Source: Frankiales bacterium
GTDB taxonomy: Bacteria; Actinomycetota; Actinomycetes; S36-B12; CAIYMF01
Length of the DNA: 64,000 nt
Reading direction: 5' to 3'
Assembly: GCA_016125335.1 (NCBI GenBank)
Contig: WGLY01000020.1
Span: forward strand, 1-64,000
Shown here: in pieces, positions 4,356 to 63,986 of the stretch
Position numbering within the stretch: the stretch's first letter is position 1
Layout: every line of letters begins with the position of its first letter
Notes under the pieces: generated by a model
The model's database searches: none
What the model was told of the DNA's origin: nothing
What the model saw: the letters and a program-made list of their open reading frames with translations, nothing else
Position numbers and translations under genes: made by a program

Positions 4356-4463
4356 CGACGTCTCCTGTGCTCGGGCCGGTGTGCTGACCCACCGTAGCCC
4401 GGCCGGGTGCCGCTTGGGCAGGCCAACCGACCGATTCGTGGACGCCTCTGGGAGGCTCCTGGC

Positions 4464-4823
4464 GTGGACCAGGACGCCGACCCCGCGCAGGCCGCGCGGA
4501 CCCAGCTCGAGCGCACCGTCGACCGGGTCCGGGCGATGGGCCTGGCCCGCCTCGAGGCCTCGTTCGAGCCCGAGCCGACCCGCGCCGAGGCGGTGCGGCG
4601 GGCGGCCCAGCGGCTGGCCGACCTCGCCGCCGCGCTCGAGGACGAGCCGGTGCGGCCAGTGCCGGTGCTGGCCGTCCACGCGGTGGGCGACCAGCTGGCC
4701 GTGTGCGGCCACGACCTGCTCGACGCCGCGGCCGGGCCCGCTGCAACGGACCGTGCGGAGGCGGCCCGGGCGGCCCTCGTGGAGGCGGCCGACGTCCTGC
4801 TGGACCTGCGCCGCCGCCTGTGA
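4464..4823 (+). CDS. Hypothetical alpha-helical protein
   Basis: A 119-residue alanine- and arginine-rich protein that I do not recognise. It appears entirely helical: an N-terminal segment with LERTVDRVRAMGLARLE, a middle segment RRAAQRLADLAAALED, a short stretch PVPVLAVHAVGDQLAVCGHD, and a C-terminal helix ending DVLLDLRRRL. The GTG at 4464 is preferred because GGGAGG lies about ten bases upstream; an ATG at 4407 is in frame but has no ribosome site. Codon third positions are strongly GC, as expected of a real gene here. No signal peptide or membrane segment is seen. Confidence 0.65.
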   Translation: MDQDADPAQAARTQLERTVDRVRAMGLARLEASFEPEPTRAEAVRRAAQRLADLAAALEDEPVRPVPVLAVHAVGDQLAVCGHDLLDAAAGPAATDRAEAARAALVEAADVLLDLRRRL

Positions 4824-4845
4824 CCCGACGCCCTGGCCAGAGCTC

Positions 4846-5730
4846 TCAGGCGCCGGGGAGGGCCGGCACCGGGCCCGTGCCCGACTCCGGGCGGGCCAGG
4901 CCCACAGCCTCGAGGACGTCGGGCAGCATGGCGTGGGCGCACGCGGCGTAGCCCTCGGCGGAGGGGTGGAACCGGTCGGCCGAGAAGTACACCTCGGGCT
5001 CGGCCGCGAACAGGGCGCCGATCTTCTCGGCGAGGGGCACCGGGCGCCCGCCCGCTCGGCGCACCCCGATGTCCTGCGCGGCGGCGAGCTCGCGCGACAT
5101 CCGGCCGGCCACCTGGCGCAGCGGCGCGGCGATCGGCCGCACGGTGCCGAGGTCCGGGCAGGTGCCGACGACGACCTCGCTGCCCGCCTCGCGCAGGCGG
5201 GCCACGGCCTCGCTGAGCAGCTGGACGGACTTCTGCGGCCGCACCAGGTGCGTGACGTCGTTGGCGCCGATCATGATCACGGCCACGTGCGGGCGGACGG
5301 CGAGCACTCGCTCCACCTGAGCCTCGAGGTCGCGGCTCTGGGCCCCCACGACGGCGACGTTGGTGAGCAGCACCGGCCGGTGCGAGGCGGCCGCGAGCTC
5401 GGCCGCGAGCCGGCCGCCGGCGGTGCCCTGCGCGTGCTCGGCGCCGAGGCCGGCCGCGCCGGAGTCCCCGAGCACGGCCAGGCGCAGCGAGGTGCCGCGC
5501 GCGGCGTCCGAGCCGGGGGGCAGGTAGCGGCCGTCGGCGTACGGCGGGACACCGCGACGGGGGCCGATCGCCCGCCGCGCCTGGCGCGCCTGGACGACCA
5601 TCACGCCCACCGCCGCCCCCGCCACCGCGGTGCCGACGCCGAGCAGCCCGCCGCCGCCCTTGGCGGCGGCGGACGCGATACGGCGCACCCGCTCGTCGCG
5701 GATCGGCAGCACCGGGAAGGTCGCGGGCAC
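4846..5730 (-). CDS. SGNH/GDSL-type lipase/esterase, membrane-anchored
   Basis: A protein of about 294 residues with an N-terminal hydrophobic segment (GGGLLGVGTAVAGAAVGVMV) followed by a SGNH hydrolase domain. Block I is LAVLGDSGAAGLGAE (catalytic Ser), block III is IMIGANDVTHLV, and block V is SADRFHPSAEGYA with the Asp/His pair. The enzyme is therefore probably anchored in or exported across the membrane and hydrolyses an ester; the substrate is unknown. The GTG at 5730 is chosen for GGGAGG eight bases upstream; GTG at 5736 is only two bases from the same site. It is divergent from cystathionine beta-synthase. Confidence 0.85.
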   Translation of the reverse strand: MPATFPVLPIRDERVRRIASAAAKGGGGLLGVGTAVAGAAVGVMVVQARQARRAIGPRRGVPPYADGRYLPPGSDAARGTSLRLAVLGDSGAAGLGAEHAQGTAGGRLAAELAAASHRPVLLTNVAVVGAQSRDLEAQVERVLAVRPHVAVIMIGANDVTHLVRPQKSVQLLSEAVARLREAGSEVVVGTCPDLGTVRPIAAPLRQVAGRMSRELAAAQDIGVRRAGGRPVPLAEKIGALFAAEPEVYFSADRFHPSAEGYAACAHAMLPDVLEAVGLARPESGTGPVPALPGA

Positions 5731-47387: not shown

Positions 47388-50300
47388 GTGACCGGCATCT
47401 CTGCGATGGCTGACGCTGTCCTGCGGGGCTCGAGGCGAGCGGTGCGCTCGCGGGTCACCGCCCTCGCCGGCGCCTCCGCGCTGCTGCTCGGCCTCGTGGC
47501 GGTGACGACGACGACGATCGCCGCGCCCGCCTCGGCCGCGCCGATCACCGACCTGTCGCTGAGCTTCGTCTCGGGCGTCAACGGCGACATCCCCAAGGGC
47601 GCCCCGCTCCCGGCGGACCTGAAGTACCAGTTCCTCATCCAGATGGAGACGACCGGCGTCTGGAACGACTCGACGAAGAACTGCCTTCCGCCGGCGCCCA
47701 AGTCGACCGGCACCGATCCCAACTACCCGAACGACTGCCAGTGGCCGGGCACCCGCACGTCCAACACCGGCGACCCGATCGTCGCCTCGGGCAACCAGGA
47801 CGACATCGCTGCGGGCAACATCCACCTCTCGGTGCTCCAGCAGGCGTGCAACGACTACGCGGCCACGGCGCCCCGTACGGCGAACTCGCCGGCGCAGCCC
47901 TGCCGCTTCCTGATCTCGGTCAAGGCCGAGGGCTACGAGATCGGCGGCGCGCACTTCTCCGTGCCCACCTCCGGCACCGCTGAGCTCGCGTCCGCCCCGG
48001 TGGTCTCGCTGCTCCAGTACCCGATCCCGCTGGCCACGATCCGCGCGCGCATCTTCCAGGACACCGTGCCGGCCGACGGTGTGTACGAGATCGACGCCGA
48101 GGCGCCGCTGCGCGGCTTCCGCGCCTTCCTCAACGACCTGCTCGGCGACGTGTCGACGGACTACTACGGCAACCCGCTGTGCACCACGTACGAGCACGAC
48201 AACAACGGCAAGATGATCTTCGTCGACGGCGCACCCGTCATCAGCTCCACCAGCACCGGCAAGTGCGTCTCGGACAGCAACGGCGACATCGTCATCCCGA
48301 ACATGGCGCCCGGTCGCTACGGCATCGTCATCCGGCCCGACGCCGTGCACCAGAACTGGCTCCAGACCACCACGCTCGAGGGCGCCCAGGACCACGACTG
48401 GTGGGTCATGGCCGGCGACACCGGCTACGGCACCGAGACCACGGCCGGTGGCGAGCTCGTCCCCGAGGTGCAGTTCGGCTTCGTACCGCCGGAGCCGACC
48501 GTGGCGCACCCGTGGGTGCGGGCCACCTACGACAGCTCCACGCACCTGACCACCGACCAGTTCAGCACCCGCACCAGCCCGAACGGCGTGACCGGCTCGC
48601 ACTCGATCTCCGGCTCCGTGCACGAGGGCTGCACGTACATCGCCTCGGTCGGCGGTGCCTACGTGCCCAACGCCGTGCCCGGCGCCAACGGCTCCTCGGA
48701 CTGCGGCCCGATCAAGAACCCCAACGTCGCGATCAGCGCGATCGACGCCGGTGACCAGGTCGTGTGGGCCGGCAAGGGCGACGCGAACGGCAACTACACC
48801 GTGAACGGCCTCGCGGACGGCCAGTACATGGTCACCGTGTGGGACGCGCCCATCAACCACATCCTCGAGACGTTCAACGTCAACATCACCGGCTCGGACG
48901 TCAACGCCGGCGTCACCTACGTGGGCGGCTGGTTCACCCACATCACCGGCTCGGTGTTCATCGACACCAACGGCAACGGCAAGCGCGACCCGGGCGAGCA
49001 GGGCGTCGCCCGCACCACGCTCACCTTCCGCGAGCGCGACAACACCCCGATGGACCAGTTCACCAACCTGATCGACACGGACCCGACGGGCCACTACGAC
49101 ATCATCCAGGCGTACCCGCTGTCGCGGTTCATGATCCTCGAGCACGCCAACCCGCGGTTCAAGCCGACCGGCATCACCGTGCAGGCGTGCAACGAGGACA
49201 AGTCCACCACCTACCTCGGTGGTGCCGTCGACATCTCCGTCGAGCCCGTCATCGGCCTCTGCGGCAACATCGACTGGGCCGTGGAGCCGTTCAAGGACGG
49301 CGAGACCGGCGGCATCGCCGGCACGATCTCCTACGGCACCACGCGCAACGAGCTCACCCCGGCCGACGCGGCGACCGAGGACTGGCAGCCCGGCATCCAG
49401 GGCGTCCCGGTCAACCTCTACGCGCCCGTCCTCTGCGGCTCGACCCTCGACCCGTCGCTCATCTCGGACCCGAAGTTCGACGCAGCCTTCAACGGCTGCC
49501 CCAACGGTCCCAACGGCGACCCGATGGTCAACGCCGACGGCTCCCTCGTGCACGGCCCGCAGCTCGCGGAGACCTACACCTCGGAGTCCTACCAGCGCCC
49601 GCAGGCCTGCGTGGCCCGTGACCGCACAGGCGCGGTGCTGACCGGCGAGCAGGTGCTCGCCGACCCGTCCAAGAACACCGACTGCGTCGAGGCCCCGCTC
49701 GCGGGCTGGTACGCCAAGCCCAGCGACTCCACCCCGGGTGCCACGGCCCAGACCGTGAACGGCAACTACGGCTTCGGCTCCTCGCGGCTCAACCTGTTCG
49801 ACCCGGCGACGACGCCGGCGTGCACCGTCGCGCAGATGGCCGAGATCCGCAGCACCGGCACCTACCCGCTGCCCGGCTGCGCCCCGCTGAACGCCGACGA
49901 CTCCGCGCCGCTGGCCTGGTACGCCGACCTGTCGGCCGCCGGCCTGCCGGACATGGGCCTCAAGCCCGACCAGTACATCGTCGGCGTGGAGATCCCGAAG
50001 GACTCCTTCGGTCACGACATGTACAAGATCACCAAGGAGGAGGACGTCAACATCTTCGGCGGCGACCAGATGCTGCCGCAGGAGAACTTCCCCGCCTCCG
50101 CCGACGCCGGAAGCAGCAGCACGTGCACGCCCGGCGACCCCAACTACAACGCGGCGGCGTGCTCCGGCCCGGGCGGCGGTGAGGGCCTCGGCGTCATCCC
50201 CGAGTGCGCCGGGCCGATGCACACCGTGCACGTCACCAACCCGGACTTCATCGACGGTGGCGGCAGCCCGTACGAGGGGCAGCAGACCCCGCTGTGCACG

Positions 50301-53300
50301 GACAAGCTCGTCGACGTGGTGAGCGGCACGGCGCAGTTCACCAACTTCGAGATGTTCACCGACGTCCCGCTGGCCTCGCACTTCTGGGGCCTGATCCTCA
50401 ACGACCTCGGCGTGTCCAGCGACCCGACGAAGATCCAGTACGGCGAGGTCGAGGGCATCCCGAACGCGCCCACCGGCATCTACGACTGGGCCGGCAACCT
50501 CGTCGACACCGCGATCGCGGACCCGAACGGCTTCTACGAGGCCATCGAGCCCTCGACGGTGCGCATCAACAACCCGTCGCCCAGCGGCGTCTCGCCGGGC
50601 ATGTACAAGTTCGTCGGCAACGACCCGGGCACGCCCGGGCACCTCAACCCGACGTACGACTCGCGCTACCGCACGATCGCGACCAACTTCCAGGCCTGGC
50701 CCGGGCTGTGGACCGTGACCGACACGGCGCCCACGCTGACCGCCGCCCAGACCTTCGACGGCCAGATGACGGCCGTGAAGTGCACCGTGTCGGACAACGA
50801 GCCCCAGCTGTTCCGGGTCGACGACCCGGTCGTGCAGGGCGCCCGCACCTTGACGATCACCGGTCGCGACTTCGGCTCTTCGGGCCAGGTCCTGCTCGGC
50901 GGGGCCGGTGAGAAGGCAGCCGACCCGCTGACCGCGACACCGCTGTCGGTCCTCTCGTGGAGCGACACCCAGATCACCGTGGCCGTGCCGGCTCCGAGCT
51001 CGTCGTTCAACGGCGCCCGGCAGCTCATGGTGCGGCGCGCCGACAACGGCAAGGTGACCACGAACGGCGTCACCCTCCAGGTGCTCGGCGGCTCGTACAC
51101 CTTCGACCGGATCTACCGCGTCGGCCCCGGCCTCACCGGAGCCAACGAGGTGAACACCGACACCGGCGGCACGCTCCAGGACGCGCTGAACCAGGCGCGC
51201 GCCTACGAGCGCGGCCCGCGCAACTCGATCCGGACGACCCTCGTGGTGGCCTACCCGCAGACGCCGGTCACCGGGTCCGACACCGTCGTGCCGAACCCGA
51301 CCGGGGCCTACCAGGAGAACCTCATCCTCGACTCGGGCACCAAGATCCAGGGCGTCGGCCCCGGCGGCTTCCAGGCCAACGGCGACTACGTCCAGGGCTC
51401 GGTCATCGACGGCTCGTTCTTCGACGAGGGCCTGCCCTCGGGCCAGAACTGGCTGACTCTGCTCGGCTCGCTGAGCTACGACAACTCCAGCATCGCGGTG
51501 CCCGACTCGGCCGCGGTGACGGTCCTCTCGCCGACGTACAACGGATCGCCCGCCCCGGCCCTCGACGGCTTCACCATCACCGGCGGCATCCAGAGCACGA
51601 CGCCGACGAACATCAACATCCTCACCGGCGGCAGCACCACGCCGTACGGCGGCACCGGCGCGGTCGTGACGCAGGGCGGCGGCATCTACGTCCACGGCGG
51701 CACGAACGGGCTCGTCATCAGCAACAACAAGATCGACGGGAACTCCGGCTCGTACGCCGGCGGCATCCGCGTGGGCACGCCGTACGCCAACAGCCCCACC
51801 CTGGGTCTGCGCACGACGTCGACCGGCTACCGCCTCAGCACGAGCGACAGCTACTCGCTGCGGAACCAGAACCTCGTCGTCGCGCACAACTCCATCACCA
51901 ACAACGGTGGTGCGAACCTCGCCGGCGGTGTGGGCCTGTTCTCGGGCACCACGAACTACCGCGTCGCCTACAACGACGTCTGCGGCAACTTCAGCGCGGA
52001 GTACGGCGGCGGCATCAGCCACTACGGGTACAGCGGCTCGAGCACGACCAACCCGAACCGCATCGACCACAACCGCATCTGGTTCAACGAGAGCTACGAC
52101 GAGGGTGGCGCCGTCCTGGTGGCCGGTGAGATCCCGCCGAACCCCGACGCCCTCTCCGGCGGCTCCGGCACTGTCCTGCTCGACCACAACCGGATCGACC
52201 AGAACCTCGCGAACGACGACGGTGGCGGCATCCGCCTGCTCAACGCCGGCGCCCGCCTGGTGACGATCGAGAACAACGAGATCGTGAACAACGTCAGCGC
52301 CCACGAGGGTGGCGGCATCTCGCTCAACGACGCCAGCAACGTGACGATCGACGCCAACACGATCGCCCGCAACGTCACCACCGCGACCGCCGTCACCAGC
52401 GACGGCACCCCGGCCGCGGCCGGCATCTCGACCTCCGGCCTGAGCACCCTGCTCAAGCAGCTGGTCGGGAACGAGCCGACCACCCCGCAGGTGTCGTTCA
52501 CCGACCCGACCACGTACAACAACGTGATCTGGGACAACCGCGCCGGTGCCTTCGACGGCATCGCCATCCACGGCATCAGCGACGGAGACGCCAACGTCTG
52601 GGACATCGGCTCGGTCGACGAGCCGGGCTCCCTGGTCGACGTCCGGACCTCGGTCCTGAGCTCGACCACGGGCACCACCGGTGACGCCTCCAACAGCGCG
52701 GTGGACCCGAAGTTCGCCTCGCCCTACACGCTGTCCGTGCACGCCGACGCGCGCCGCTCGTTCGTGGCCTTCCGCCAGACGGTCATCAACGACATGACGC
52801 AGTCGCCGTGGAACTACGCCGACTACGCGATCACCACCGGCTCGCCGGCGATCGACTTCGGCACCACGCTGCCGGCGGTCACCACCGACGTCACCGGCTA
52901 CGACCGCATCGGCATCCCGGACGCCGGAGCCTTCGAGCTGCGCACGGGCGCCGACGCCCTCGCGGCCCCGGGCGTGCCCACCATCGGTGACGTCACCGCG
53001 GGCAACGGCTCGCTGGCCGTCGCCTGGACTGCGGGCGCGGCCGGCAACCCGGCGGCGACCTCCTTCATCGCCCGGGCCTGGACCGCCGCCTCCGGCGGCG
53101 ACCTGGCCGGCGTCTGCACCAGCACCGGGACCGGGTGCACCATCACCGGCCTCACCAACGGCACGACTTACCACGTGGACGTGCTCGCCTACAACGCCGT
53201 CGGCCAGTCGGCCGCCACCGACCCCCGGGTCGAGGGCACGCCGACCATCCCGCCGCCCGGCACCCCGACGAACCTCACCGTCACCCCGGTGACCTCCGGG

Positions 53301-54185
53301 CTCGTCGCGGGGCACGCGCTGGACATCCGCTTCACGCCCAACGCCATCAACGGCCTCTCGACGGGGTACCTGGCCACGGCTCACACGGCGGCGGACGGCA
53401 GCGGCTCTGCGGGCACCTGCACCGCAGGCCCCGCCACGAGCACCTCCCAGCAGTCGTGCCGGATCTCCGGGCTCACGACGGGGACGACGTACTGGGTCGA
53501 CGTGGTCGCCACCTACGCGGTCGCACCGGGCACGTCCTCGGCCCCGACTGCGCTCGTGAGCGGCATGCCGGCCACGACCCCTGGGGCGCCGACCGGCGTC
53601 ACCTTGGTCCGCGGCAGCACCGCCGGTTCGCTCGTGGCCAACTGGACCGCACCGGGCAACACGGGCGGCGTGCCGCTGGTGTCCTACACGGTGCAGCTCC
53701 AGTACCGGGTCGGATTCAACGGGTGGGCGAACACGGGACCCTCTCACTCGGTGACGGCGCCCACCACCACCTACACCTTCACCGGGCTCCCGAACTTCCG
53801 GACCTACCGGGTCTCGGTGACGGCGACCAATGCGGCCGGACTGACCGGCAACGGCGGTACGAGCTCGAGCACCGGTGTGACCCCGGCGTTCCGGGCCGGG
53901 ACGGTGGCCGCCCTCTACGCCCCTGGGCTGCGGGGCGGGGTGCGGATCGCGTTCACCGCACCGGGCAGGGCCGCGGCTCCCGGTACGACGTGGGTCGTGG
54001 CCGCCTTCACCACCTCGCGCGGCTACCGCGTGGCGGGGGTCTGCACGGCCAAGGGCGGCACCGCAGCGGTCTGCACCATCACGCACCTCGTGCGCGGCCG
54101 CACGTACTTCATCTCCATCAAGAAGGCCGGCACGTCGTGGCCCTCCCCGGTCAAGGTCGTGCGCACGAAGGTGCGTGCGCAGTGA
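47388..54185 (+). CDS. Giant secreted beta-helix / Fn3 surface protein
   Basis: A 2265-residue exported protein. The signal peptide is ALAGASALLLGLVAVTTTT to PASA|API. Then come several beta-rich modules of the SdrD-B/collagen-binding-like kind (for example ITGSVFIDTNGNGKRDPGE at about residue 517), and an IPT/TIG-like domain near 1145-1235 (LTITGRDFGSSGQVLLGG). A large right-handed parallel beta-helix spans about 1260-1860 (GGGIYVHGGTNGLVISNNKI, LDHNRIDQNLANDDGGGIRL) ending in a choice-of-anchor-like NSAVDPKF and GSPAIDFG. Three to four Fn3-type modules follow. There is no LPXTG or membrane anchor, so it is released or bound non-covalently. It is the first gene of the cupredoxin cluster and its stop is 98 bases before the next chosen start. 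GTG at 47388 or ATG at 47406 may be the start. Confidence 0.9.
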   Translation: MTGISAMADAVLRGSRRAVRSRVTALAGASALLLGLVAVTTTTIAAPASAAPITDLSLSFVSGVNGDIPKGAPLPADLKYQFLIQMETTGVWNDSTKNCLPPAPKSTGTDPNYPNDCQWPGTRTSNTGDPIVASGNQDDIAAGNIHLSVLQQACNDYAATAPRTANSPAQPCRFLISVKAEGYEIGGAHFSVPTSGTAELASAPVVSLLQYPIPLATIRARIFQDTVPADGVYEIDAEAPLRGFRAFLNDLLGDVSTDYYGNPLCTTYEHDNNGKMIFVDGAPVISSTSTGKCVSDSNGDIVIPNMAPGRYGIVIRPDAVHQNWLQTTTLEGAQDHDWWVMAGDTGYGTETTAGGELVPEVQFGFVPPEPTVAHPWVRATYDSSTHLTTDQFSTRTSPNGVTGSHSISGSVHEGCTYIASVGGAYVPNAVPGANGSSDCGPIKNPNVAISAIDAGDQVVWAGKGDANGNYTVNGLADGQYMVTVWDAPINHILETFNVNITGSDVNAGVTYVGGWFTHITGSVFIDTNGNGKRDPGEQGVARTTLTFRERDNTPMDQFTNLIDTDPTGHYDIIQAYPLSRFMILEHANPRFKPTGITVQACNEDKSTTYLGGAVDISVEPVIGLCGNIDWAVEPFKDGETGGIAGTISYGTTRNELTPADAATEDWQPGIQGVPVNLYAPVLCGSTLDPSLISDPKFDAAFNGCPNGPNGDPMVNADGSLVHGPQLAETYTSESYQRPQACVARDRTGAVLTGEQVLADPSKNTDCVEAPLAGWYAKPSDSTPGATAQTVNGNYGFGSSRLNLFDPATTPACTVAQMAEIRSTGTYPLPGCAPLNADDSAPLAWYADLSAAGLPDMGLKPDQYIVGVEIPKDSFGHDMYKITKEEDVNIFGGDQMLPQENFPASADAGSSSTCTPGDPNYNAAACSGPGGGEGLGVIPECAGPMHTVHVTNPDFIDGGGSPYEGQQTPLCTDKLVDVVSGTAQFTNFEMFTDVPLASHFWGLILNDLGVSSDPTKIQYGEVEGIPNAPTGIYDWAGNLVDTAIADPNGFYEAIEPSTVRINNPSPSGVSPGMYKFVGNDPGTPGHLNPTYDSRYRTIATNFQAWPGLWTVTDTAPTLTAAQTFDGQMTAVKCTVSDNEPQLFRVDDPVVQGARTLTITGRDFGSSGQVLLGGAGEKAADPLTATPLSVLSWSDTQITVAVPAPSSSFNGARQLMVRRADNGKVTTNGVTLQVLGGSYTFDRIYRVGPGLTGANEVNTDTGGTLQDALNQARAYERGPRNSIRTTLVVAYPQTPVTGSDTVVPNPTGAYQENLILDSGTKIQGVGPGGFQANGDYVQGSVIDGSFFDEGLPSGQNWLTLLGSLSYDNSSIAVPDSAAVTVLSPTYNGSPAPALDGFTITGGIQSTTPTNINILTGGSTTPYGGTGAVVTQGGGIYVHGGTNGLVISNNKIDGNSGSYAGGIRVGTPYANSPTLGLRTTSTGYRLSTSDSYSLRNQNLVVAHNSITNNGGANLAGGVGLFSGTTNYRVAYNDVCGNFSAEYGGGISHYGYSGSSTTNPNRIDHNRIWFNESYDEGGAVLVAGEIPPNPDALSGGSGTVLLDHNRIDQNLANDDGGGIRLLNAGARLVTIENNEIVNNVSAHEGGGISLNDASNVTIDANTIARNVTTATAVTSDGTPAAAGISTSGLSTLLKQLVGNEPTTPQVSFTDPTTYNNVIWDNRAGAFDGIAIHGISDGDANVWDIGSVDEPGSLVDVRTSVLSSTTGTTGDASNSAVDPKFASPYTLSVHADARRSFVAFRQTVINDMTQSPWNYADYAITTGSPAIDFGTTLPAVTTDVTGYDRIGIPDAGAFELRTGADALAAPGVPTIGDVTAGNGSLAVAWTAGAAGNPAATSFIARAWTAASGGDLAGVCTSTGTGCTITGLTNGTTYHVDVLAYNAVGQSAATDPRVEGTPTIPPPGTPTNLTVTPVTSGLVAGHALDIRFTPNAINGLSTGYLATAHTAADGSGSAGTCTAGPATSTSQQSCRISGLTTGTTYWVDVVATYAVAPGTSSAPTALVSGMPATTPGAPTGVTLVRGSTAGSLVANWTAPGNTGGVPLVSYTVQLQYRVGFNGWANTGPSHSVTAPTTTYTFTGLPNFRTYRVSVTATNAAGLTGNGGTSSSTGVTPAFRAGTVAALYAPGLRGGVRIAFTAPGRAAAPGTTWVVAAFTTSRGYRVAGVCTAKGGTAAVCTITHLVRGRTYFISIKKAGTSWPSPVKVVRTKVRAQ

Positions 54186-54283: not shown

Positions 54284-55612
54284 GTGAACGACGAGAGCGC
54301 GACGAGCGCGACGGGCTCCGGCCTCATCTCGCGTCGCACCGTGCTGCGCGCGGGTGTGGTGACGGCGGCCGGTGCGGGGATCGCGGGAGTCGCCGCCACC
54401 CGCGGCGGCTCCCAGGCGATCGCGGCCGACGCCACGTGGAAGCCGACCTACCGCACGGAGGTCCACCTCGCGGCGACCGACGGCTGGGTGTCGATGCCGG
54501 ACTCCGCCAAGCCGGTCAAGGGCTTCTGGCCCGACGAGCTGGCCCCGGCGCCGTACAACATGTACGTCTTCGGATTCCGCGACGTCACCGGCTACAACGA
54601 CGCCAAGGTGATCGGCGAGCGCGGCAAGGCGCAGATCTCCGCCCCGCCCCTCTTCTTCGACGAGGGCAGCGAGATCCGGGTCCAGCTGACCAACCTCGGC
54701 CTCTCGATGCGTCCGGACCTCGTCGACGGGCACACGATGCACTGGCACGGGTTCAACAACGCCATCCCGATCTTCGACGGCGTCCCCGAGATGTCGGCGT
54801 CGGTGCCGATCGGCAAGACGATCACGTACCTGTTCCGGCCGCACGACGCCGGCACGTACATGTACCACTGCCACTTCGAGGACGTGGAGCACGTCCAGAT
54901 GGGCATGACCGGTCTGGTCTGCGTGCGGCCGCTGATGAACTACGAGACCGACGGCAAGACCCAGCGCTACGACGCCGACGGCAAGGCGCTGCGCTACGTC
55001 TTCAACGACGAGGCCACGCGCTACGACCGCGAGTACCCGCTCTTCCTCACCGAGAACATGCCCGAGGACCACTGGCGCGACGCGCACATCCAGATCAGCG
55101 ACTGGGCCTACTTCCGGGCCGGCTTCGCGCTGTTCAACGGCCGGGCGTTCCCCGACACGATCGAGGACACCTTCGACCCGGCCCCCACCGTGTCCTACGC
55201 CGCGGGCTCCGCGGGCGAGCGGCTGAAGTACCAGCCGCGCACCGCGCGGATCGACGCCGAGGTGGGGGAGGTCGTCCTGCTCCGCATCTCGAGCCTCGGC
55301 TCGCTGCGGCACTCGATCACCATGGACGGCATCCCGATGCACGTGGTGGGCGCAGACGCCAGCCAGCTCAAGGGCAAGGACGGCCACGACAACAGCTACG
55401 TGACCAACTCGGTGGACTGCGGCCCGGGCGAGTCGCGCGACGTGCTCTTCACCGCGCCGAGCACCCCCGGCACCTACCTGCTCTACGACCGCAACTTCAT
55501 GAACCTGCAGAACGACGGCGCCAGCGGGTACGGCGGCATGCTCACCCATGTCGTCGTCCACCCCGCGGGCACCCTCGGCCAGCAGCCTCTCGAGCTCCCG
55601 ACCCGGATGTGA
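54284..55612 (+). CDS. Tat-exported multicopper-oxidase-type cupredoxin protein
   Basis: A 442-residue protein with a twin-arginine signal (LISRRTVLRAGVVTAAGAG, residues 14-32). Domain 1 has copper motifs DGHTMHWHGF (His153, His155) and MYHCHFEDVEHVQMGM (His195-Cys196-His197, His203, Met206/208), a type 1 plus type 3 pattern. Domain 2 keeps two histidines (LRHSITMDGIPMHVVG, His343 and His353) but has YDRNF where a second HCH motif would be. NGRAFPDT (285-292) is shared with the two following proteins. GTG at 54284 is preferred because GGAGG is well placed; GTG at 54182 overlapping the upstream stop is the alternative. It probably oxidises a substrate outside the membrane, as one part of a multi-protein complex. 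Confidence 0.9.
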   Translation: MNDESATSATGSGLISRRTVLRAGVVTAAGAGIAGVAATRGGSQAIAADATWKPTYRTEVHLAATDGWVSMPDSAKPVKGFWPDELAPAPYNMYVFGFRDVTGYNDAKVIGERGKAQISAPPLFFDEGSEIRVQLTNLGLSMRPDLVDGHTMHWHGFNNAIPIFDGVPEMSASVPIGKTITYLFRPHDAGTYMYHCHFEDVEHVQMGMTGLVCVRPLMNYETDGKTQRYDADGKALRYVFNDEATRYDREYPLFLTENMPEDHWRDAHIQISDWAYFRAGFALFNGRAFPDTIEDTFDPAPTVSYAAGSAGERLKYQPRTARIDAEVGEVVLLRISSLGSLRHSITMDGIPMHVVGADASQLKGKDGHDNSYVTNSVDCGPGESRDVLFTAPSTPGTYLLYDRNFMNLQNDGASGYGGMLTHVVVHPAGTLGQQPLELPTRM

Positions 55613-56961
55613 TGGCGATGAACCTGACCCGACTCACCGCGTTCGGCGCGGGAATCGCCGTGATCGCGGCCACGCTCGTCGGCACCTCGGTGGCCTCGCA
55701 GGCGGTGCCCACGGCGCAGTCCGAGGGCATCGAGTGCGAGCCCGGCGACCAGAGCTCGCTGCACCCGAGCTTCAGCATCTCCACCGCCACGGGGCACATC
55801 TCCATGCCCGACGGCAACGTGCTGTTCTCCTGGGGCTTCAAGACCGACTCGCACGCCTTCCAGCTGCCCGGCCCGATCTTCTGCGTGCAGCAGGGCGCGA
55901 CGGTGTCGATCACGCTGACCAACACCCTCGACGAGGACACCTCGCTGGTGTTCCCCGGCCAGAGCGACGTGACGGCCAACGGGAACCCGTCGGAGCCGCA
56001 GTTCGGCGGTGACGGCCAGCTCACCTCGCTCGCACCCACCGCGGCGGCCAACGGCGGCCAGGTGACCTACACCTTCACGGCGGCCGACCCGGGCACGTAC
56101 CTGTACGAGAGCGGCACCGACCCGGCCAAGCAGGTCGAGATGGGCCTCTACGGCGCGATCGTCGTGCGGCCGGCCGGCCACCCGGACCAGGCGTACGCGG
56201 ACATCCGCACCAAGTTCCAGCCGGGGCGCGAGTTCATCCACATCCTGGCCCAGGTCGACCCCGACCTGCACCTGGCCGTGGAGCAGCACAAGGCCTTCAA
56301 CTGGAACAACTACTCGGCCAAGTACTTCCTGCTCAACGGGCGCAGCTCACCGGACACGACCAGCCCCAACGACGCCTCGTGGCTGCCGAGCCAGCCTTAC
56401 GGCGCCATGGTGCACGTGAAGGAGCAGTACCAGCCGGACGCGCCTCTGGTGAACGGCGTCAACCCCACCAACGGCGGTGACACGCTGCCCGCGCTCGTGC
56501 GCTACATCAACGTCATGCCGACCGACGCGGCCTTCCACCCGCACGGCAACACCGAGCGCGTGATCGCAGAGGACGGCCAGCCGCTGGACAAGACCGGCCA
56601 GCCCGACAGCTCGTACGGCAAGTACCTCGTGGACATCGGCGCCAACCGCACGGTCGACGCCATGTTCACCTGGACCAACGTCGAGAACTACAACCCGATC
56701 ACCAACCCCGTCCCGGTGCCGATCAGTCCCTACCAGGACGTCCTCACCTCGGCGAGCACGTGGTACTCGATGAGCCCCTACCTGGGCTTCCAGGGCGAAC
56801 TCCCCGCCGGCGTGACCTCGATGAACGTGTGCGGCGAGTACTACCACATGGCCCACAACCACGCGCTGCAGTTCGCCACGAACTTCGGGGCGTCCTTCGG
56901 CGGCCAGATGACGCTGATCCGCATCGACCCGGCAGCCAACCAGCTGTGCCTGGCGCAGTGA
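55612..56961 (+). CDS. Exported cupredoxin-domain protein with HPH and HNH motifs
   Basis: A 449-residue exported protein (signal peptide GAGIAVIAATLVGTSVASQA). Cupredoxin domain 1 ends GTYLYESGTDPAKQVEMGL, where the copper-binding HCH of the previous protein is replaced by YES, so domain 1 is probably metal-free. Domain 2 holds AAFHPHGNTERV (His309, His311) and VCGEYYHMAHNHALQF (Cys407, His412, His415, His417), with Met433 downstream. The shared motif NGRSSPDT begins at residue 242. The ATG at 55612 overlaps the upstream stop (TGATG). It lacks a type 1 Cys-His pair like that of its neighbour and may supply the other half of a trinuclear copper centre. Confidence 0.88.
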   Translation: MAMNLTRLTAFGAGIAVIAATLVGTSVASQAVPTAQSEGIECEPGDQSSLHPSFSISTATGHISMPDGNVLFSWGFKTDSHAFQLPGPIFCVQQGATVSITLTNTLDEDTSLVFPGQSDVTANGNPSEPQFGGDGQLTSLAPTAAANGGQVTYTFTAADPGTYLYESGTDPAKQVEMGLYGAIVVRPAGHPDQAYADIRTKFQPGREFIHILAQVDPDLHLAVEQHKAFNWNNYSAKYFLLNGRSSPDTTSPNDASWLPSQPYGAMVHVKEQYQPDAPLVNGVNPTNGGDTLPALVRYINVMPTDAAFHPHGNTERVIAEDGQPLDKTGQPDSSYGKYLVDIGANRTVDAMFTWTNVENYNPITNPVPVPISPYQDVLTSASTWYSMSPYLGFQGELPAGVTSMNVCGEYYHMAHNHALQFATNFGASFGGQMTLIRIDPAANQLCLAQ

Positions 56962-56975
56962 GCGAGGACATCGAC

Positions 56976-59900
56976 ATGGACACCCGCACCCGGCGCCCTG
57001 CGCGCACCGCCGCCACCTTCGGCGTCGGTATCGCCCTGCTCGCTGCCACGGGGGTGGCGGCCGCCACCCCCGTGGTCTCCTCCCTCGCGGCCCAGCCCAC
57101 CGCTGCCCGCCCCGCCGCAGTCACCGCGCCCGCGGCGATCCACGGCACCGCGGTGTCGGCGCCCAAGCCCAGCCTGCTGCCGCCCCAGGGCGCAGCGGCC
57201 GGCGTCGACTGCACCGATGCGTCCTCGGACGCGTCGGGCGGGTGCACCATCCACGCCCGCACCGGCACGGTGTCGGTCGCGGGCGTGGCGAACCCGCTGC
57301 AGCTGTGGAAGTTCAGCGCCGACAACACCGAGACGGGTGCGGGCTCGGCCCTCATCGTCGGCCAGGTGGGCGTGAAGATGACCATCCACCTGGTCAACGA
57401 CCTCGCCGCGCCCGTCGGGCTGTCCATCCCGCAGCTCGACGGCGTCGGGCACGGCCTCCAGGCCGTCGACGGCAACGGCGCCTACACCGCGGCCGCGGCC
57501 CCGGGCGGTGGCACCCAGGCCTTCACCTTCACGCCCGACCGCGCCGGCACCTACGTGTACCAGGCAGGCCTCACCGACGCCGCCAACCCGGGCACCTCGG
57601 TCGACGGCGTGCGCGAGGTCGCGATGGGCCTCGTGGGCGCTCTCGTCGTGCGGCCCGCCGCCGGCTCGGCCGACGCCTACGACGTCGCCGAGAGCACGTT
57701 CGACGACGAGGCGGTCCTCGTCTACACCGACGTCGACACGCACATGCTCGCGAACCCGGGCGCGTTCAACATGCGCAACTGGACGCCGAACGTGCACCTG
57801 ATCAACGGCCACTCCTACCCCGACACCCCGCCGATCGCGACGGCGCTGCACCGCACGACCATGCTGCGCTTCGTCAACGGGTCGCTGCTCGAGAAGAGCC
57901 CGACCATCCTTGGCACGCGCATGACGCAGGTGGCCCGCAGCGGCCGGCCCGTGCCGGCCCCGCTGTCGGTGTCCGGCCGGTTCATGAACACCGGCGACAC
58001 CTTCGACGCCACCGTGTTCGCGAACACCGAGGAGCGCTTCGCGATCTTCGACTCGCCCGGCGTGCTGCGCAACGACCTGCGCCTCACCGCCGGCTCGCCC
58101 AACGCCCCGCGCGTCGGCGGTGCCATCACCTTCCTCGACAGCACCGGCGCCGCGGCCACACGCATCTACGGCCCGACCGTGTCCGGCTTCACCGCCGCCG
58201 GCCAGCCCGGCGGCCCCGGTCGTCCGATCACGCTGACCGCCACCTTCACCGGCTCGGGCAGCTCGAACGTCCAGGGCGCCGACATGTACGTCGACGACCT
58301 CGGGGCGCTCCCCACCCCGGTGACGTTCACCCCCGGCAACCCGGTGACGGTCACCTGGCCGCTGCCCGGCACGATCCTCGACGGCCTCGCCAGCGGCGAG
58401 CACACCATCTGGGTGACGGCCTACGACGGCAGCGCCTACGGCGCGCGCGCCAGCGTCAAGGTGCGCGTCGACCGTGACGGCCCCGCCGTCAGCGGCGTGA
58501 CCCTCTCGCGCAACCACGTCAACGGCACGCAGGACGTCGACCTCGGCGCCACGCTCGACGAGCGGAACACGGGCGGCAGCCAGTCGGTGGCGGCCCGGTA
58601 CTGGATCGACGGCTCGGCGACCGACCCGACCGGTGCTCCCGTGTCCGGCACGATGGACACGAACGGCCCGCGCTCGGTGGCGGCCGCGACCGGCACCATC
58701 GCCAAGGCCGACATCGCGACCCTCGCCGAGGGCACGCACTCGGTCCGCGTGCAGGGCCAGGACGACCTCGGCCAGTGGGGCGCGGTGACCTCGAAGGACA
58801 TCGTCGTCGACACGACCGCCCCGGTCACGACGGCCATCACGCTCAACCCGGTCGCCACCAACGGCCTGGTGGGCAGCCCGAACAAGCCCGGCAACGTCAC
58901 GATCACCGCGACCGTGACCGACGCCGCCAGCGCTGTCACCGGCGTCGAGGGCTTCCTCGACTCCGTCGGCCCCGCGGGCAGCGCCAACGGCCTCTACTTC
59001 TCCCCGCTCGGCGGCGGGAAGTGGCAGACCGACATGCCGCTCGCCTGGCTCGCGGGCAAGAAGGCGGACGGGCTGGTCAGCCTCTACGTCGTCGGCACCG
59101 ACGCCGCGGGCAACCGCAGCGACGGCACCGGCGCCACCGAGTCGACCACGATCAACCTCGACCGCACCAAGCCGACCCTGTCGCTGGACAGCCTCGTCCA
59201 GGGCACCGGCTACCTCGCCAACCGCACGCTGACCGTCGGCTTCACCGCCGCGGACAACGCCACTGCGACCGGCTCGGGCATCGTCTACGCCGAGTGGTTC
59301 GTGGGCGCCGACCCCGGCCAGGGCCGCGCCACTGCCCTCGCCGTGCCGAGCTCGCCGAACGTCGGGCCGTTCAGCGGGTCGTTCACCTACGACCTGTACG
59401 CGGCCGGCCTGTTCAACGGCGGCAACGTCTCGGTGACCTTCCGGGTGAAGGACGCCGCCGGCAACTGGGCGCAGACGCGCAGCACGGTCGCCACGACCTC
59501 GCTGTGGTTGTTCCGCAACTTCTTCGAGTCCTCCGGCACGACGGCCCAGCGGATCAGTCAGCTGTCCGTGCCCTGGAACCTGGGAGCGAGCGGCAACGTC
59601 GGCTTCGCCACCACCACGGCGACGGGACGGATCCAGGGTCAGACCAGCCTTCTGGTCCCGGTGCGGCCGGCCGCCTACTTCGCGGTCGACCTCTCGGCGC
59701 CGAACTACGCCAACCAGCCGCTGAGCACCTTCCACGCGACGTTCGACATGCGGAGCCTGACCGCGGTGACTGGGTGCTCCGGCCCCGGCAGCACGGCCAC
59801 CTGCCGCCCCGGCGGGGTGACGGTGTTCCAGGCCACCGGCTCGAACGGCACCGTGCTCGTCGTCCAGTACGGACGGGCGGCGGCCAACCGTGCCGCCCGG

Positions 59901-60182
59901 TTCCGGGTCGGCATCCGCGGCACGACCGGTCTGGCCTTCCCCGGCGGCAACTCCCAGGGCTGGGTGACGGTGGGCTCCGCCACGACGCAGTCGTTCAACG
60001 TCGTGGTCGACTGGAGCAGCTCCGGCCGTCGCGGCACCGCGCACGTCAACGGGGGAGGTGCCATCAACTCGCCGCAGGGCTCCAGCGGGCAGACGGTGAC
60101 GTCCTTCTCGGTCGGCTCGGTGAACCTGGCGCCGCTCGGCTCCACCGGCAACCTGTCGTTCGACAACGTCAACATCGCCTGA
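56976..60182 (+). CDS. Exported cupredoxin-like protein with Ig-like repeats
   Basis: A 1068-residue exported protein (signal FGVGIALLAATGVAAATP). The first 380 residues repeat the two-domain cupredoxin layout of the two upstream proteins, with the shared motif NGHSYPDT at 277-284. However, GTYVYQAGLTDAANPG replaces the HCH site and no HxH pair is seen, so it is probably non-metallated. About five Ig/bacterial-Ig-like domains follow (VTLSRNHVNGTQDVDLG; AITLNPVATNGLVG; TLTVGFTAADNATATGSG). The last 230 residues form a LamG-like beta domain. ATG at 56976 (GAGG upstream) is preferred over GTG at 56958. It may be a structural or surface-binding subunit of the oxidase complex. Confidence 0.85.
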   Translation: MDTRTRRPARTAATFGVGIALLAATGVAAATPVVSSLAAQPTAARPAAVTAPAAIHGTAVSAPKPSLLPPQGAAAGVDCTDASSDASGGCTIHARTGTVSVAGVANPLQLWKFSADNTETGAGSALIVGQVGVKMTIHLVNDLAAPVGLSIPQLDGVGHGLQAVDGNGAYTAAAAPGGGTQAFTFTPDRAGTYVYQAGLTDAANPGTSVDGVREVAMGLVGALVVRPAAGSADAYDVAESTFDDEAVLVYTDVDTHMLANPGAFNMRNWTPNVHLINGHSYPDTPPIATALHRTTMLRFVNGSLLEKSPTILGTRMTQVARSGRPVPAPLSVSGRFMNTGDTFDATVFANTEERFAIFDSPGVLRNDLRLTAGSPNAPRVGGAITFLDSTGAAATRIYGPTVSGFTAAGQPGGPGRPITLTATFTGSGSSNVQGADMYVDDLGALPTPVTFTPGNPVTVTWPLPGTILDGLASGEHTIWVTAYDGSAYGARASVKVRVDRDGPAVSGVTLSRNHVNGTQDVDLGATLDERNTGGSQSVAARYWIDGSATDPTGAPVSGTMDTNGPRSVAAATGTIAKADIATLAEGTHSVRVQGQDDLGQWGAVTSKDIVVDTTAPVTTAITLNPVATNGLVGSPNKPGNVTITATVTDAASAVTGVEGFLDSVGPAGSANGLYFSPLGGGKWQTDMPLAWLAGKKADGLVSLYVVGTDAAGNRSDGTGATESTTINLDRTKPTLSLDSLVQGTGYLANRTLTVGFTAADNATATGSGIVYAEWFVGADPGQGRATALAVPSSPNVGPFSGSFTYDLYAAGLFNGGNVSVTFRVKDAAGNWAQTRSTVATTSLWLFRNFFESSGTTAQRISQLSVPWNLGASGNVGFATTTATGRIQGQTSLLVPVRPAAYFAVDLSAPNYANQPLSTFHATFDMRSLTAVTGCSGPGSTATCRPGGVTVFQATGSNGTVLVVQYGRAAANRAARFRVGIRGTTGLAFPGGNSQGWVTVGSATTQSFNVVVDWSSSGRRGTAHVNGGGAINSPQGSSGQTVTSFSVGSVNLAPLGSTGNLSFDNVNIA

Positions 60183-60208: not shown

Positions 60209-60676
60209 ATGACCAGTTCCCACTCCGGCCGCATGCGGCTGGTGGCTCTCGGGGCCGGAGCCACGCTTCTCACCGGCGCGATCTTCGCGGGCTCCGTGAT
60301 CGCCAACCAGTCGGCGAACGCCGTCGGGTCGACGAGCCCGGTCCCCGTGTCGCGGACGGTGGAGGCCGCCACGGGCATCCGGGTGCTCGCCGCCCATGTG
60401 GTGGGCGCCGGCGGCATCGTCGAGCTGACCTACCAGATCCTCGACCAGGAGAAGGCCTCCATCGTCGAGGGCGACGTCACCCGGACGCCGCTGCTGCGCA
60501 GCCAGTCCAACGGCCACACCCTCCAGGACACGGCCGCCATGCGGCACGGTCACACCCTGCGACCCGCGGGGACCTACTTCCTCCTCTACTACAACAAGGA
60601 CGGTGCCGTCCGCGTGGGTGACAAGATCGACGTGGTCATCAACGGCACCACGCTGTCGGGGGTGCCGGTCACGTGA
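60209..60676 (+). CDS. Small exported protein of the cupredoxin cluster
   Basis: A 155-residue protein with a signal peptide (LGAGATLLTGAIFAGSVIANQ) and a single small beta-rich domain (GIRVLAAHVVGAGGIVELTY, then RPAGTYFLLYYNKDGAVRVG). AAMRHGHTLRPA carries a His-x-His that could bind metal. No family is recognised. It starts 27 bases after the Ig-repeat gene and overlaps the CopCD gene by four bases, so it is translated in series with them. Its position between the oxidase-like proteins and the copper importer suggests copper handling. Confidence 0.75.
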   Translation: MTSSHSGRMRLVALGAGATLLTGAIFAGSVIANQSANAVGSTSPVPVSRTVEAATGIRVLAAHVVGAGGIVELTYQILDQEKASIVEGDVTRTPLLRSQSNGHTLQDTAAMRHGHTLRPAGTYFLLYYNKDGAVRVGDKIDVVINGTTLSGVPVT

Positions 60677-62382
60677 GCCGCGCTGCTCGTCGACTCACCG
60701 CGGTCCTGGTGGCGGTCCTCGCCGCCATCGGGCTCGCCGTGCTCCCCGCCGGTCCGGCCTCGGCGCACGCCTACGTGCTGTCGAGCACCCCGGGTGACGG
60801 GCAGCGGGTGGAGACGAGCCCGCGCGAGGTCACCCTCACGCTGTCCGAGAACGGCGACCCCGAGTCCGTCGTCGCGTCCCTGGTGGGGCCGGCCGGGCCG
60901 GTCGCCACACTCGGTGCGGCGTACGTCAAGGGCGCCGACCCGCAAGGCCACCAGGTGCTCGCCATCCCGGTCGGCAGCACCCTCGATGCCGGCCTCTACC
61001 GGCTCTCCTTCCAGGTGACGTCGACCTTCGACGGCCACACCACCGAGTCGTGGCTGCTGTTCGGCGTCCGCACGGACGTCGCCTCGCCCATCGGCGTCGA
61101 CAACGCCGTGAGCACCAACGCCCTCTCGGACACGCTGCGCGGCGCCTTCGAGGGCACGCTGCTCATCGCCGCGGGCATCGCGTTCGGGCTGCTCGTCCTG
61201 ACGCCGCTGTCCGCGGGCCGCGGCCGTCGCACGGCCCGCGTCGCCGGCACGGTCGCGGTCGTCGCGGCGCTCGCGGTCGGTGCGGAGTGGCACAACGGCA
61301 ACGGCCTGCTCGTGGCCTCGTGCGGCGTCGTCGGCGCCGCCCTTCTCACCCTGCTGGCGACCCGTCCCGGGCTCGGGGGCCGGGCGCGCCTGGCCGCCGC
61401 CTGCCTCGGGCTCGTCCTCGCCGTCGCGCCCCTCGGGCTCGTCGGGCACGCGGCCGCGCAGGGCCCGCTGATGACCGTGGTCGCCGTGCTGCACATGGTC
61501 TCCACGGCCGCCTGGGTGGGCACCGTGGTCGCCGGTGCGATCGTCACGCGCGGCGTCGCGCGCGAGGAGCGGCGCGAGGTGCTGCGCCGCACCTCGCTCG
61601 TCGGCACCTCGACGTTCCTGGTGGCACTGATCACCGGTCTGCTCATGGGCAACGCGATGGTGCCCTCGCTCGGCGGCCTCACCGGCTCGACGTACGGCCA
61701 GGCGCTGGTGGTGAAGACGCTGCTGGTGCTGGGCGTGCTCGCCCTCGCGCTCCTGTCCCGCGAGCGCCTGCGCTTCGGTCGCACCACGCCGATGCTGCCC
61801 GAGGCCGTGGTGCTCGTGGCGGTGGCGGTGATCGGCGTCTTCGTCGCCACGCAGGCGCCGCCGCTGTCGGCCCGCTACCAGCCGCTGCCGAGCACGTGGT
61901 CGGTCGACACCGCGCCGTCCGCCACGCAGGTCGACGACCTGCTCGTGAGCGCGAGCATCGACCCCAACACCCCCGGGACGCGGTTCCTCGTGGTGCGGGT
62001 CGACAACGTGCGGCGTCCCGCGCCGGCACCGGTCACCGCCGTGTCGGCGGCGGTCGGCGACGGCGACCTGGTCCCGCTCACGCGCGGCGAGGACGGCCAG
62101 TGGACGACCTCGGTGTCGGTGCCCGCGGCGGGTCCGCTCTCGCTCACCGCCGTGGTGTCGCGTCCGGGCATGCCCGACGCCGTGGCCGACACGACCTGGA
62201 CCGTCGGCCCCACCCCCGGCGAGTACGCCGGCGGCTCGCCGCTCACCCTTTACGTCGCCGGCGCCATCGCCGGCCTGCTCGGCGCCTGGCTGCTGCTCCT
62301 GCTCGTGGAGGGCTACCTGCGTCCGCGCGAGTCGGAAACGGCCGTCGGCGCGGACGAGCTCGCCGAGCAGCTCACCGTCTGA
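60673..62382 (+). CDS. CopC-CopD fusion copper protein
   Basis: A 569-residue protein. The signal peptide (LVAVLAAIGLAVLPAGPASA) is followed by His32 and the CopC domain (HAYVLSSTPGDGQRVETSP) including DGH in TSTFDGHTTESWLLFGV. This keeps both Cu(II) ligands that the lone CopC at 45525 partly lacks. A CopD membrane domain of about eight segments follows (GTLLIAAGIAFGLLVLTP, MTVVAVLHMVSTAAWVGTVV), then a large exported domain and a final transmembrane segment. CopCD-type fusions take up copper across the membrane. GTG overlaps the upstream stop by four bases. It likely delivers copper to the cupredoxin proteins of this cluster. Confidence 0.92.
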   Translation: MSRAARRLTAVLVAVLAAIGLAVLPAGPASAHAYVLSSTPGDGQRVETSPREVTLTLSENGDPESVVASLVGPAGPVATLGAAYVKGADPQGHQVLAIPVGSTLDAGLYRLSFQVTSTFDGHTTESWLLFGVRTDVASPIGVDNAVSTNALSDTLRGAFEGTLLIAAGIAFGLLVLTPLSAGRGRRTARVAGTVAVVAALAVGAEWHNGNGLLVASCGVVGAALLTLLATRPGLGGRARLAAACLGLVLAVAPLGLVGHAAAQGPLMTVVAVLHMVSTAAWVGTVVAGAIVTRGVAREERREVLRRTSLVGTSTFLVALITGLLMGNAMVPSLGGLTGSTYGQALVVKTLLVLGVLALALLSRERLRFGRTTPMLPEAVVLVAVAVIGVFVATQAPPLSARYQPLPSTWSVDTAPSATQVDDLLVSASIDPNTPGTRFLVVRVDNVRRPAPAPVTAVSAAVGDGDLVPLTRGEDGQWTTSVSVPAAGPLSLTAVVSRPGMPDAVADTTWTVGPTPGEYAGGSPLTLYVAGAIAGLLGAWLLLLLVEGYLRPRESETAVGADELAEQLTV

Positions 62383-62737: not shown

Positions 62738-63163
62738 CTAGTCGTGGTCGGGGCGGCGCAGGCGCTTGATCTCGCCGCGGCGCTTCTTCGCGTCGATGCG
62801 GCGCTGGCGGGAGCGGGCGCTGGGCCGGGTGGGCACGCGCGGCCGGGGCGGCGGGGCGATGGCGGCGGCGAGCAGGTCGGCCAGCTTCTGCTCGGCGGCC
62901 TGGCGGTTCTGCCACTGGCTGCGCTGCTCGGAGGCCGACACGGTGAGGACGCCGTCCACGAGGCGGTCCTCGAGGCGCGCGATCGCGCGCTCGCGCAGGG
63001 CGGGCGAGAGCGCGGTGGTGCGGGAGACGTCGAGGCTGAGCTCCACGCGCGAATCGGTGGTGTTCACGCCCTGGCCGCCGGGACCCGACGAACGCGAGAA
63101 TCGCCAGGAGAGCTCCGCCTCGGGGACGACGACGGAGCCGCGGATCCTCAGGTCGCCCGGCAT
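62738..63163 (-). CDS. arfB: Alternative ribosome-rescue factor B (peptidyl-tRNA hydrolase)
   Basis: A 141-residue protein with the release-factor-type GGQ loop in SSGPGGQGVNTTDSRVEL and the basic C-terminal tail (RPSARSRQRRIDAKKRRGE then IKRLRRP) that enters the ribosomal mRNA channel. Lacking the codon-recognition domain of RF1/RF2, it is ArfB (YaeJ type), which frees stalled ribosomes. ATG at 63163 (MPGDLRIRG) starts the conserved N-terminus; upstream in-frame residues are not family-like. It is divergent from the SURF1-like gene (95 bp). Confidence 0.93.
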   Translation of the reverse strand: MPGDLRIRGSVVVPEAELSWRFSRSSGPGGQGVNTTDSRVELSLDVSRTTALSPALRERAIARLEDRLVDGVLTVSASEQRSQWQNRQAAEQKLADLLAAAIAPPPRPRVPTRPSARSRQRRIDAKKRRGEIKRLRRPDHD

Positions 63164-63257
63164 GCCCCCAGGATGCCTGACGCGGCGGCCCGCGTCGGGC
63201 GGGTTGCCGGCCGCCGCCGGGGCCCGGACGTCGGGCGACGGCGGATACCGTGGGGCG

Positions 63258-63986
63258 GTGCTCGCGCTGCTGCTCACCCGCAAGTGGGTGGGGCTCACGG
63301 TGCTGGTCGTCGTGCTGATCGTCGGGTTCGGCGCCCTGTCTGCGTGGCAGTGGCAGCGCGCTCAGCGCCAGGACGTCGCCGCGCCCGTGCCGTCGTCCAC
63401 GGTGCTCGGGGAGGCGGGGCTGGCGACGTCGGACTACGGCACGCGGGTGCAGGTGAGCGGTCGCTACGACGCCGCCCACCAGACGCTGGTGCAGCACAGC
63501 CCCACGTCGTACTGGGTGGTGACCCCGCTCGTGCCCGACGACGGCCGCGCCGTGCCGGTGGCGCGGGCCACGGTGAGCAGCCCGCAGGACCCCGCGGTGC
63601 GCGACGTCACGGCGGGGACGGTGGACGTCGTGGGGGTGGCGCAGCCCTACGAGGGCGATCCCGGCACGCCGTCGGCGCTGCCGCCAGGCCAGGTGCCGCG
63701 CCTGACGTCGGCCGCGCTCGCCCTGCCCTACCCGGTCACCGGTGGGTGGATCGCGCTGGAGTCGCAGGAGCCCGCGGCGGCGGTGGCGGCGGACCCGGTC
63801 GTGCCGCCGGTGGGCAGCTCGGCGCCGTCGCCGCTGAGGCTGCAGAACCTGTCCTACGCGGTGCAGTGGGTGCTCTTCGCGGGCTTCGTGATGTTCTTCT
63901 GGTGGCGGATGTTCCGCGACGACCTGCGCGGCACCGGCCGACGCCGACCCCCGCAGGGCGCGCCCCCGGTGCGTGAGGTGTACTGA
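63258..63986 (+). CDS. SURF1-family cytochrome oxidase assembly protein
   Basis: A 242-residue SURF1-like protein. An N-terminal transmembrane segment (WVGLTVLVVVLIVGFGALSA) is followed by the SURF1 start WQWQRAQRQD. An extracytoplasmic domain (VQVSGRYDAAHQTLVQH, VVTPLVPDDGRAVPVARAT) leads to the C-terminal QNLSYAVQWVLFAGFVMFFW, the typical final membrane segment. SURF1 helps assemble heme-copper oxidase subunit I. GTG at 63258 gives a start just before the first segment. It faces away from arfB. The proximity to a copper-protein cluster may be coincidental. Confidence 0.88.
   Translation: MLALLLTRKWVGLTVLVVVLIVGFGALSAWQWQRAQRQDVAAPVPSSTVLGEAGLATSDYGTRVQVSGRYDAAHQTLVQHSPTSYWVVTPLVPDDGRAVPVARATVSSPQDPAVRDVTAGTVDVVGVAQPYEGDPGTPSALPPGQVPRLTSAALALPYPVTGGWIALESQEPAAAVAADPVVPPVGSSAPSPLRLQNLSYAVQWVLFAGFVMFFWWRMFRDDLRGTGRRRPPQGAPPVREVY

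Follow-up and report, generated by a model that had tools for sequence, protein, structure and literature searches.

Multicopper oxidases and their shared active sites

Two-domain multicopper oxidases are homotrimers, and their trinuclear cluster forms where domain 1 of a protomer meets domain 2 of its neighbor (PMC13151041). In the type C enzymes (structures 3g5w and 2zwn; haloarchaeal proteins of the WP_276255833 type) one polypeptide carries all of the ligands, twelve per protein, and the homotrimer has three active sites; domain 1 holds the type 1 copper, with an HxxHxH and an HCH motif, and domain 2 contributes two His pairs. The initial annotation of the DNA analyzed here set out from the premise that a single chain must carry all four His-x-His pairs of a trinuclear center. 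The homotrimeric two-domain oxidases, which share the site between chains, show that premise to be wrong (PMC13151041). The description of a shared center as unusual must also be narrowed: since inter-chain sharing as such is normal in homotrimers, only a heteromeric split, with the site divided between two different proteins, is out of the ordinary.

The six-domain oxidases (ceruloplasmin and MnxG/MofA) are single chains made up of three two-domain units, with one trinuclear site and with most domains free of copper; in the bacterial six-domain proteins the type 1 copper has been assigned to an even domain, domain 2 (PMC3600357). The accepted origin of the ceruloplasmin- and MnxG-like enzymes is a homotrimeric two-domain enzyme that became a fused chain and lost most of its sites (PMC3600357). 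A multicopper oxidase can also be made as a multi-protein complex, as is the case for Bacillus MnxEFG (PMC5622069), in which MnxG is the sole multicopper oxidase; MnxE and MnxF are not oxidase paralogues and have no known homologues. Plant and fungal laccases, for their part, have been reported as heteromeric oligomers (PMC8517187). The literature that we found reports no split site among heteromeric laccases. To our knowledge, every subunit of such an oligomer is a complete laccase with a site of its own.

The A-B-C locus

The locus lies toward the downstream end of the window, as the whole 64,000-nucleotide stretch of DNA that was analyzed is called here. Its genes, all on the + strand, are as follows.

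47388..54185, + strand: protein U, a 2265-aa secreted scaffold with SdrD_B, beta-helix and fibronectin III domains (Pfam; synteny)
54284..55612, + strand: protein A, 442 aa, two cupredoxin domains (Pfam Cu-oxidase_2/3; ligand residues; 14 homologues)
55612..56961, + strand: protein B, 449 aa, two cupredoxin domains (Pfam Cu-oxidase_3; 13 homologues)
56976..60182, + strand: protein C, 1068 aa, a two-domain cupredoxin paralogue devoid of copper ligands, followed by Ig-like repeats
60209..60676, + strand: a 155-aa protein of no known family, secreted or anchored, conserved in the cluster
60673..62382, + strand: a CopC-CopD fusion (Pfam CopC, 2e-12, and CopD, 4e-8; synteny), overlapping the preceding gene by 4 bases

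The stop codon of A and the start codon of B share one base (TGATG at 55610-55614), and the two genes are in different reading frames in the window as well as in the relatives used for models. Protein C is 34% identical to B (E 4e-16), and one of its orthologues matches Cu-oxidase_3 at E 4e-12.

The layout of this locus is closest to that of the type C two-domain oxidases, which are also its best sequence and profile matches: A resembles their domain 1, with its type 1 copper site, HxxHxH and HCH motifs, and B resembles their domain 2, with its two His pairs. The difference is that the two halves of the site are found here on separate proteins and that the third paralogue is ligand-free; the rule of one polypeptide with all of the ligands fails for A and B in every homologue. 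The likeness to the six-domain oxidases, drawn in the case of MnxG/MofA from published description, is that of three two-domain units with mostly copper-free domains, but these units are the products of three genes instead of segments of one chain. The parallel with MnxEFG is limited to the making of an oxidase from several proteins; unlike in MnxEFG, it is the ligands of one active site that are divided here between paralogues.

Partition of the copper ligands

The residues that define the partition are these.

54731..54748, + strand: A His150, His153 and His155 (HTMHWH), the type 1 His and the first trinuclear pair; invariant in 14/14 homologues
54866..54907, + strand: A His195-Cys196-His197, His203 and Met208, the second trinuclear pair and the remainder of the type 1 site; invariant in 14/14 homologues
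56536..56544, + strand: B His309 and His311 (HPH), the third trinuclear pair; present in 13/13 homologues
56854..56862, + strand: B His415 and His417 (HNH), the fourth trinuclear pair; present in 11/11 homologues not truncated at a contig edge

All eight ligands of domain 1 are found in A: His150, Cys196, His203 and Met208 of the type 1 site and the trinuclear His153/155 and His195/197. The sequence HTMHWHG is an instance of HxxHxH, the motif of multicopper-oxidase type 1 domains. Domain 2 of A has lost its ligands, and the HxH pairs of the whole protein, exactly two, are both in domain 1. Protein B, likewise with exactly two HxH pairs, is the complement: domain 1 has lost all of its ligands and domain 2 supplies the other four trinuclear His. 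Jointly, the two proteins account for every ligand of a textbook site, namely the eight trinuclear His and the four type 1 residues (His, Cys, His and Met); four His-x-His pairs and a type 1 site are provided by A and B combined and by neither singly. The initial annotation had placed the HWH and HCH pairs, Cys196, His203 and the Met of A, and the HPH and HNH pairs of B, correctly; it had also recognized that the second domain of A lacks the other two pairs, that the first domain of B lacks a copper site and that the sum over the two proteins is exactly four pairs, two on each. What it overlooked is His150, which completes the type 1 site of A. The further residues that it listed in B, Cys407 and His412, exist, but a role as core ligands is not borne out: they are replaced by T and by Y/F in the betaproteobacterial homologues, and were rejected as copper ligands for this lack of conservation.

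Comparison with proteins of known structure leads to the same assignments. The Cu-oxidase_2/3 matches of A and the Cu-oxidase_3 match of B are above the Pfam cut-off. The solved structures nearest to A are the two-domain oxidases 3g5w and 2zwn, which have type 1 copper in domain 1; the A profile matches 3g5w with an E value of 2e-25, and HTxHWHG and HCH fall on the domain-1 ligands. With the B profile, which matches these chains too, the ligand-free first domain overlies their domain 1, and FHPHG and HVAHSH align on the domain-2 pairs, HTHG and HDH. Taken by itself, the profile match of the last His pair of B is weak (0.1 and 1.7 bits); the assignment of this pair to the domain-2 motif follows from the joint alignment and from conservation.

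Conservation was assessed in a ligand table of 42 aligned proteins (14 A, 13 B, 11 C and four single-chain relatives from plasmids), with homologues belonging to several families of the Actinomycetota and, among the Betaproteobacteria, to Cupriavidus and Paraburkholderia; A and B homologues alike extend down to 34% identity. Each of the 14 A proteins has the eight domain-1 ligands and none of the domain-2 four. The 13 B proteins show the reverse, the domain-2 four and none of the domain-1 eight, with two of them cut at a contig edge before the last pair; the third pair is HPH or HEH and is kept throughout, and the one exception to the loss is that two or three B proteins retain Met at the axial position. 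No copper ligand is present in any of the 11 C homologues, and all 12 are present in the three haloarchaeal single-chain two-domain oxidases of the same alignment. In a phylogenetic tree A, B and C form separate clades (support of 97-100% for A and C, and of 79-95% for B), and the division of labor thus probably arose once, before these lineages split or exchanged genes.

The number of pairs is in itself unremarkable: at least two HxH pairs occur in 8% of shuffled A sequences and in 5% of shuffled B sequences. A chance pairing of motifs is therefore possible on count, and is rejected on conservation across homologues; it is the position and conservation of the HxH pairs, rather than their number, that is striking. 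All three proteins are under purifying selection, C least so (dN/dS of 0.10-0.38 for A and B, and of 0.20-0.56 for C).

Gene neighborhood and co-occurrence

Among 395 genomes of the class, the 7 that have an orthologue of A are also the ones that have an orthologue of B, and the same is true of 3 genomes out of 397 of the phylum; the two genes are adjacent in every case. In ten further genomes of the class there is a match to the first domain of B only, at E values of 1e-16 to 1e-19, as is the case for generic oxidases. The initial annotation had proposed a search for a conserved adjacent pair and had regarded the occurrence of either gene alone as telling against a joint enzyme. The adjacent pair is found in Actinomycetota and in Betaproteobacteria, and neither A without B nor B without A was encountered in the genomes searched (395 of the class and 397 of the phylum).

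The loci closest to that of the window come from Candidatus Nanopelagicales and from other actinobacterial metagenome genomes. The Actinomycetota order, U-A-B-C-155 aa-CopCD, is kept wherever contigs are long enough, with the last genes diverged in the most distant loci; the order A-B-C is also kept in Cupriavidus and Paraburkholderia. A and B are separate genes in all of the loci examined, with no fusion of the two. A search of plasmids with the second domain of B, which might have uncovered a fused A-B protein or an MnxG/MofA homologue, returned the same eight Cupriavidus and Paraburkholderia records and two weak matches, one of them a single-chain two-domain oxidase, and viral contigs searched with the A and B profiles yielded no match.

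Two genomes have more than one copy of the cluster. One (G594) carries two diverged A-B-C sets on different contigs (L029 and L030), which suggests that a cell may have more than one enzyme of the A-B-C type. In the other (G077) the two copies are on short contigs (L027 and L028), and B of the second copy is interrupted, a frameshift or an error of assembly having divided it between two overlapping frames (L028:4066-4659 and 4449-5063).

In the Betaproteobacteria the gene that follows A and B encodes a protein of ~2,700 aa that begins with a match to C (and B) and matches U over the rest of its length (E 1e-51). This C-U fusion is found in Cupriavidus metallidurans CH34 and in Paraburkholderia (L037:12788-20884 and L038:12808-20979), whereas U is a separate upstream gene in the Actinomycetota. 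The fusion ties parts of the cluster together; it concerns C and U, and not the contact between A and B.

A putative heteromeric oxidase

The exact complementarity of the ligands, the conserved adjacency of the genes in two phyla and the finding of neither gene alone favor a heteromeric oxidase with a shared center, and this is the best-supported reading of the sequences. The homology of each half to single-chain oxidases implies that the trinuclear site would lie at a protomer interface, and since homotrimers build their site between domains 1 and 2 of neighbors, an A-B heteromer, probably A-B-C, is the simplest reading. The proposal of the initial annotation thus stands as regards complementarity and adjacency; its two-protein unit gives way to one that probably consists of three paralogous two-domain proteins, A, B and C. 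The working enzyme would still probably be two different proteins joined at one shared site, with C, the proposed third member of the complex, as a likely inactive partner. We regard it as likely that A, B and C are paralogous multicopper-oxidase subunits of an extracytoplasmic heteromer, most simply a ring with A:B:C in the proportion 1:1:1, which is one of several stoichiometries compatible with the data. We lean, with less assurance, toward the more specific notion of an obligate heterotrimer of three paralogues with one trinuclear site, its His distributed 4+4 over two proteins, as the unfused counterpart of a six-domain oxidase.

How such an assembly might work can be outlined by analogy. 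Domain 1 of A would contribute half of the trinuclear cluster in addition to the type 1 copper; domain 2 of B would dock on it and bring the other half, and the four pairs would converge, provided that A and B pack as their two-domain relatives do. The type 1 copper of A would oxidize the substrate (a metal ion, Cu(I) or a phenolic compound are the candidates), and the electrons would travel by way of the His195-Cys196-His197 strand to the A/B interface, where they would reduce oxygen to water. The two remaining interfaces of the ring, involving the faces of A domain 2 and B domain 1, and C, would be dead. The oxidase would probably be associated with the cell surface together with scaffold U, and copper would probably be supplied through the CopC-CopD protein. 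A has a twin-arginine motif, SRRTVLRAG (with a weak Pfam TAT_signal match, E 0.08), and B has a Sec-type signal, as judged by eye. In the lineage of the window the two halves thus seem to leave the cytoplasm by separate pathways, A by Tat and B by Sec, which would mean that the site is completed only outside the cytoplasm. AlphaFold models based on five sequences each have mean pLDDT values of 41 (A) and 35 (B), and with alignments this shallow are too unreliable to use.

Whether C belongs to the enzyme is the point at which an alternative has the most to recommend it. A and B could share the site in an A-B dimer or an A3B3 ring, with C an adhesive surface protein that has kept the cupredoxin fold. 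The absence of ligands from all 11 C proteins, the weaker constraint on C that its dN/dS values indicate, its long Ig-like repeats and its fusion to the scaffold in the Betaproteobacteria all fit such a role. Yet on every contig that extends far enough C comes directly after B; it shares its two-domain family with A and B and suits the third position of a trimer, and the six-domain oxidases likewise have mostly copper-free domains; we consider the exclusion of C conceivable and rather doubtful. It is improbable that no trinuclear cluster forms at all, and that A acts by itself, either as a partial oxidase or carrying electrons on its type 1 copper, while B is structural or stores copper. The type 1 site of A is indeed complete and its assembly with B is a prediction, but the four trinuclear His in A and the four in B would then be without an evident separate role and are nonetheless invariant over two phyla, the matching positions on the other domains have all been lost, and a simple electron carrier has no need of HxH pairs.

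The remaining alternatives concern the kind of enzyme. Copper nitrite reductases form trimers and have their type 1 copper in domain 1, they are among the solved relatives of A and B, and their type 2 site is also located between subunits, so that A and B might be pieces of an enzyme of that sort. However, the type 2 site of nitrite reductase uses three His, whereas eight His of the trinuclear type, in both pairs of A and both pairs of B, are kept here; the best profile matches are two-domain oxidases, and the curated nitrite reductase model TIGR02376 scores 32 bits against a cut-off of 296. There is very little to be said for this interpretation. Membership in the MnxG/MofA family, which would make the complex an unfused six-domain oxidase of Mn(II) or Fe(II) at the cell surface, is compatible with the heteromeric A-B-C oxidase, which it would extend by naming a family and a substrate. 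Six-domain oxidases with a single trinuclear site are known from bacteria, MnxG among them (PMC3600357), three two-domain subunits make six domains, and a mof-type operon of Rubrivivax holds a putative copper chaperone (PMC8218464), as the cluster described here holds CopC-CopD. That A has its type 1 copper site in its first domain, and not in domain 2 as in the bacterial six-domain proteins (PMC3600357), speaks against this assignment, which is unlikely as things stand.

Implications

No heteromeric or heterotrimeric multicopper oxidase with a split site was found in a search of the literature that covered few subscription journals. What is apparently new is a site predicted to be divided between two different proteins, neither of them sufficient alone; sharing within homotrimers and the existence of heteromeric laccases were already known. 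If the heteromeric A-B-C oxidase is real, a conserved heteromer with complementary loss of ligands represents an intermediate or a parallel outcome that is missing from the fusion scheme for the six-domain oxidases. There is also a practical consequence: automatic annotation that proceeds chain by chain would call each of these proteins a defective or partial oxidase, and the enzyme would be missed.

Downstream genes of the cluster

The 155-aa protein is conserved across 11 aligned loci and has no Pfam or NCBIfam match. It has an MRHGH stretch which, together with its layout, recalls a copper chaperone; the motif is lost in distant members. The predicted CopC-CopD protein fits a function in supplying copper to the enzyme and one in copper tolerance equally well. 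On its 3' side, at 62744-63976 of the window, is a 410-aa reading frame that lacks a family match and is partly present in the nearest relative.
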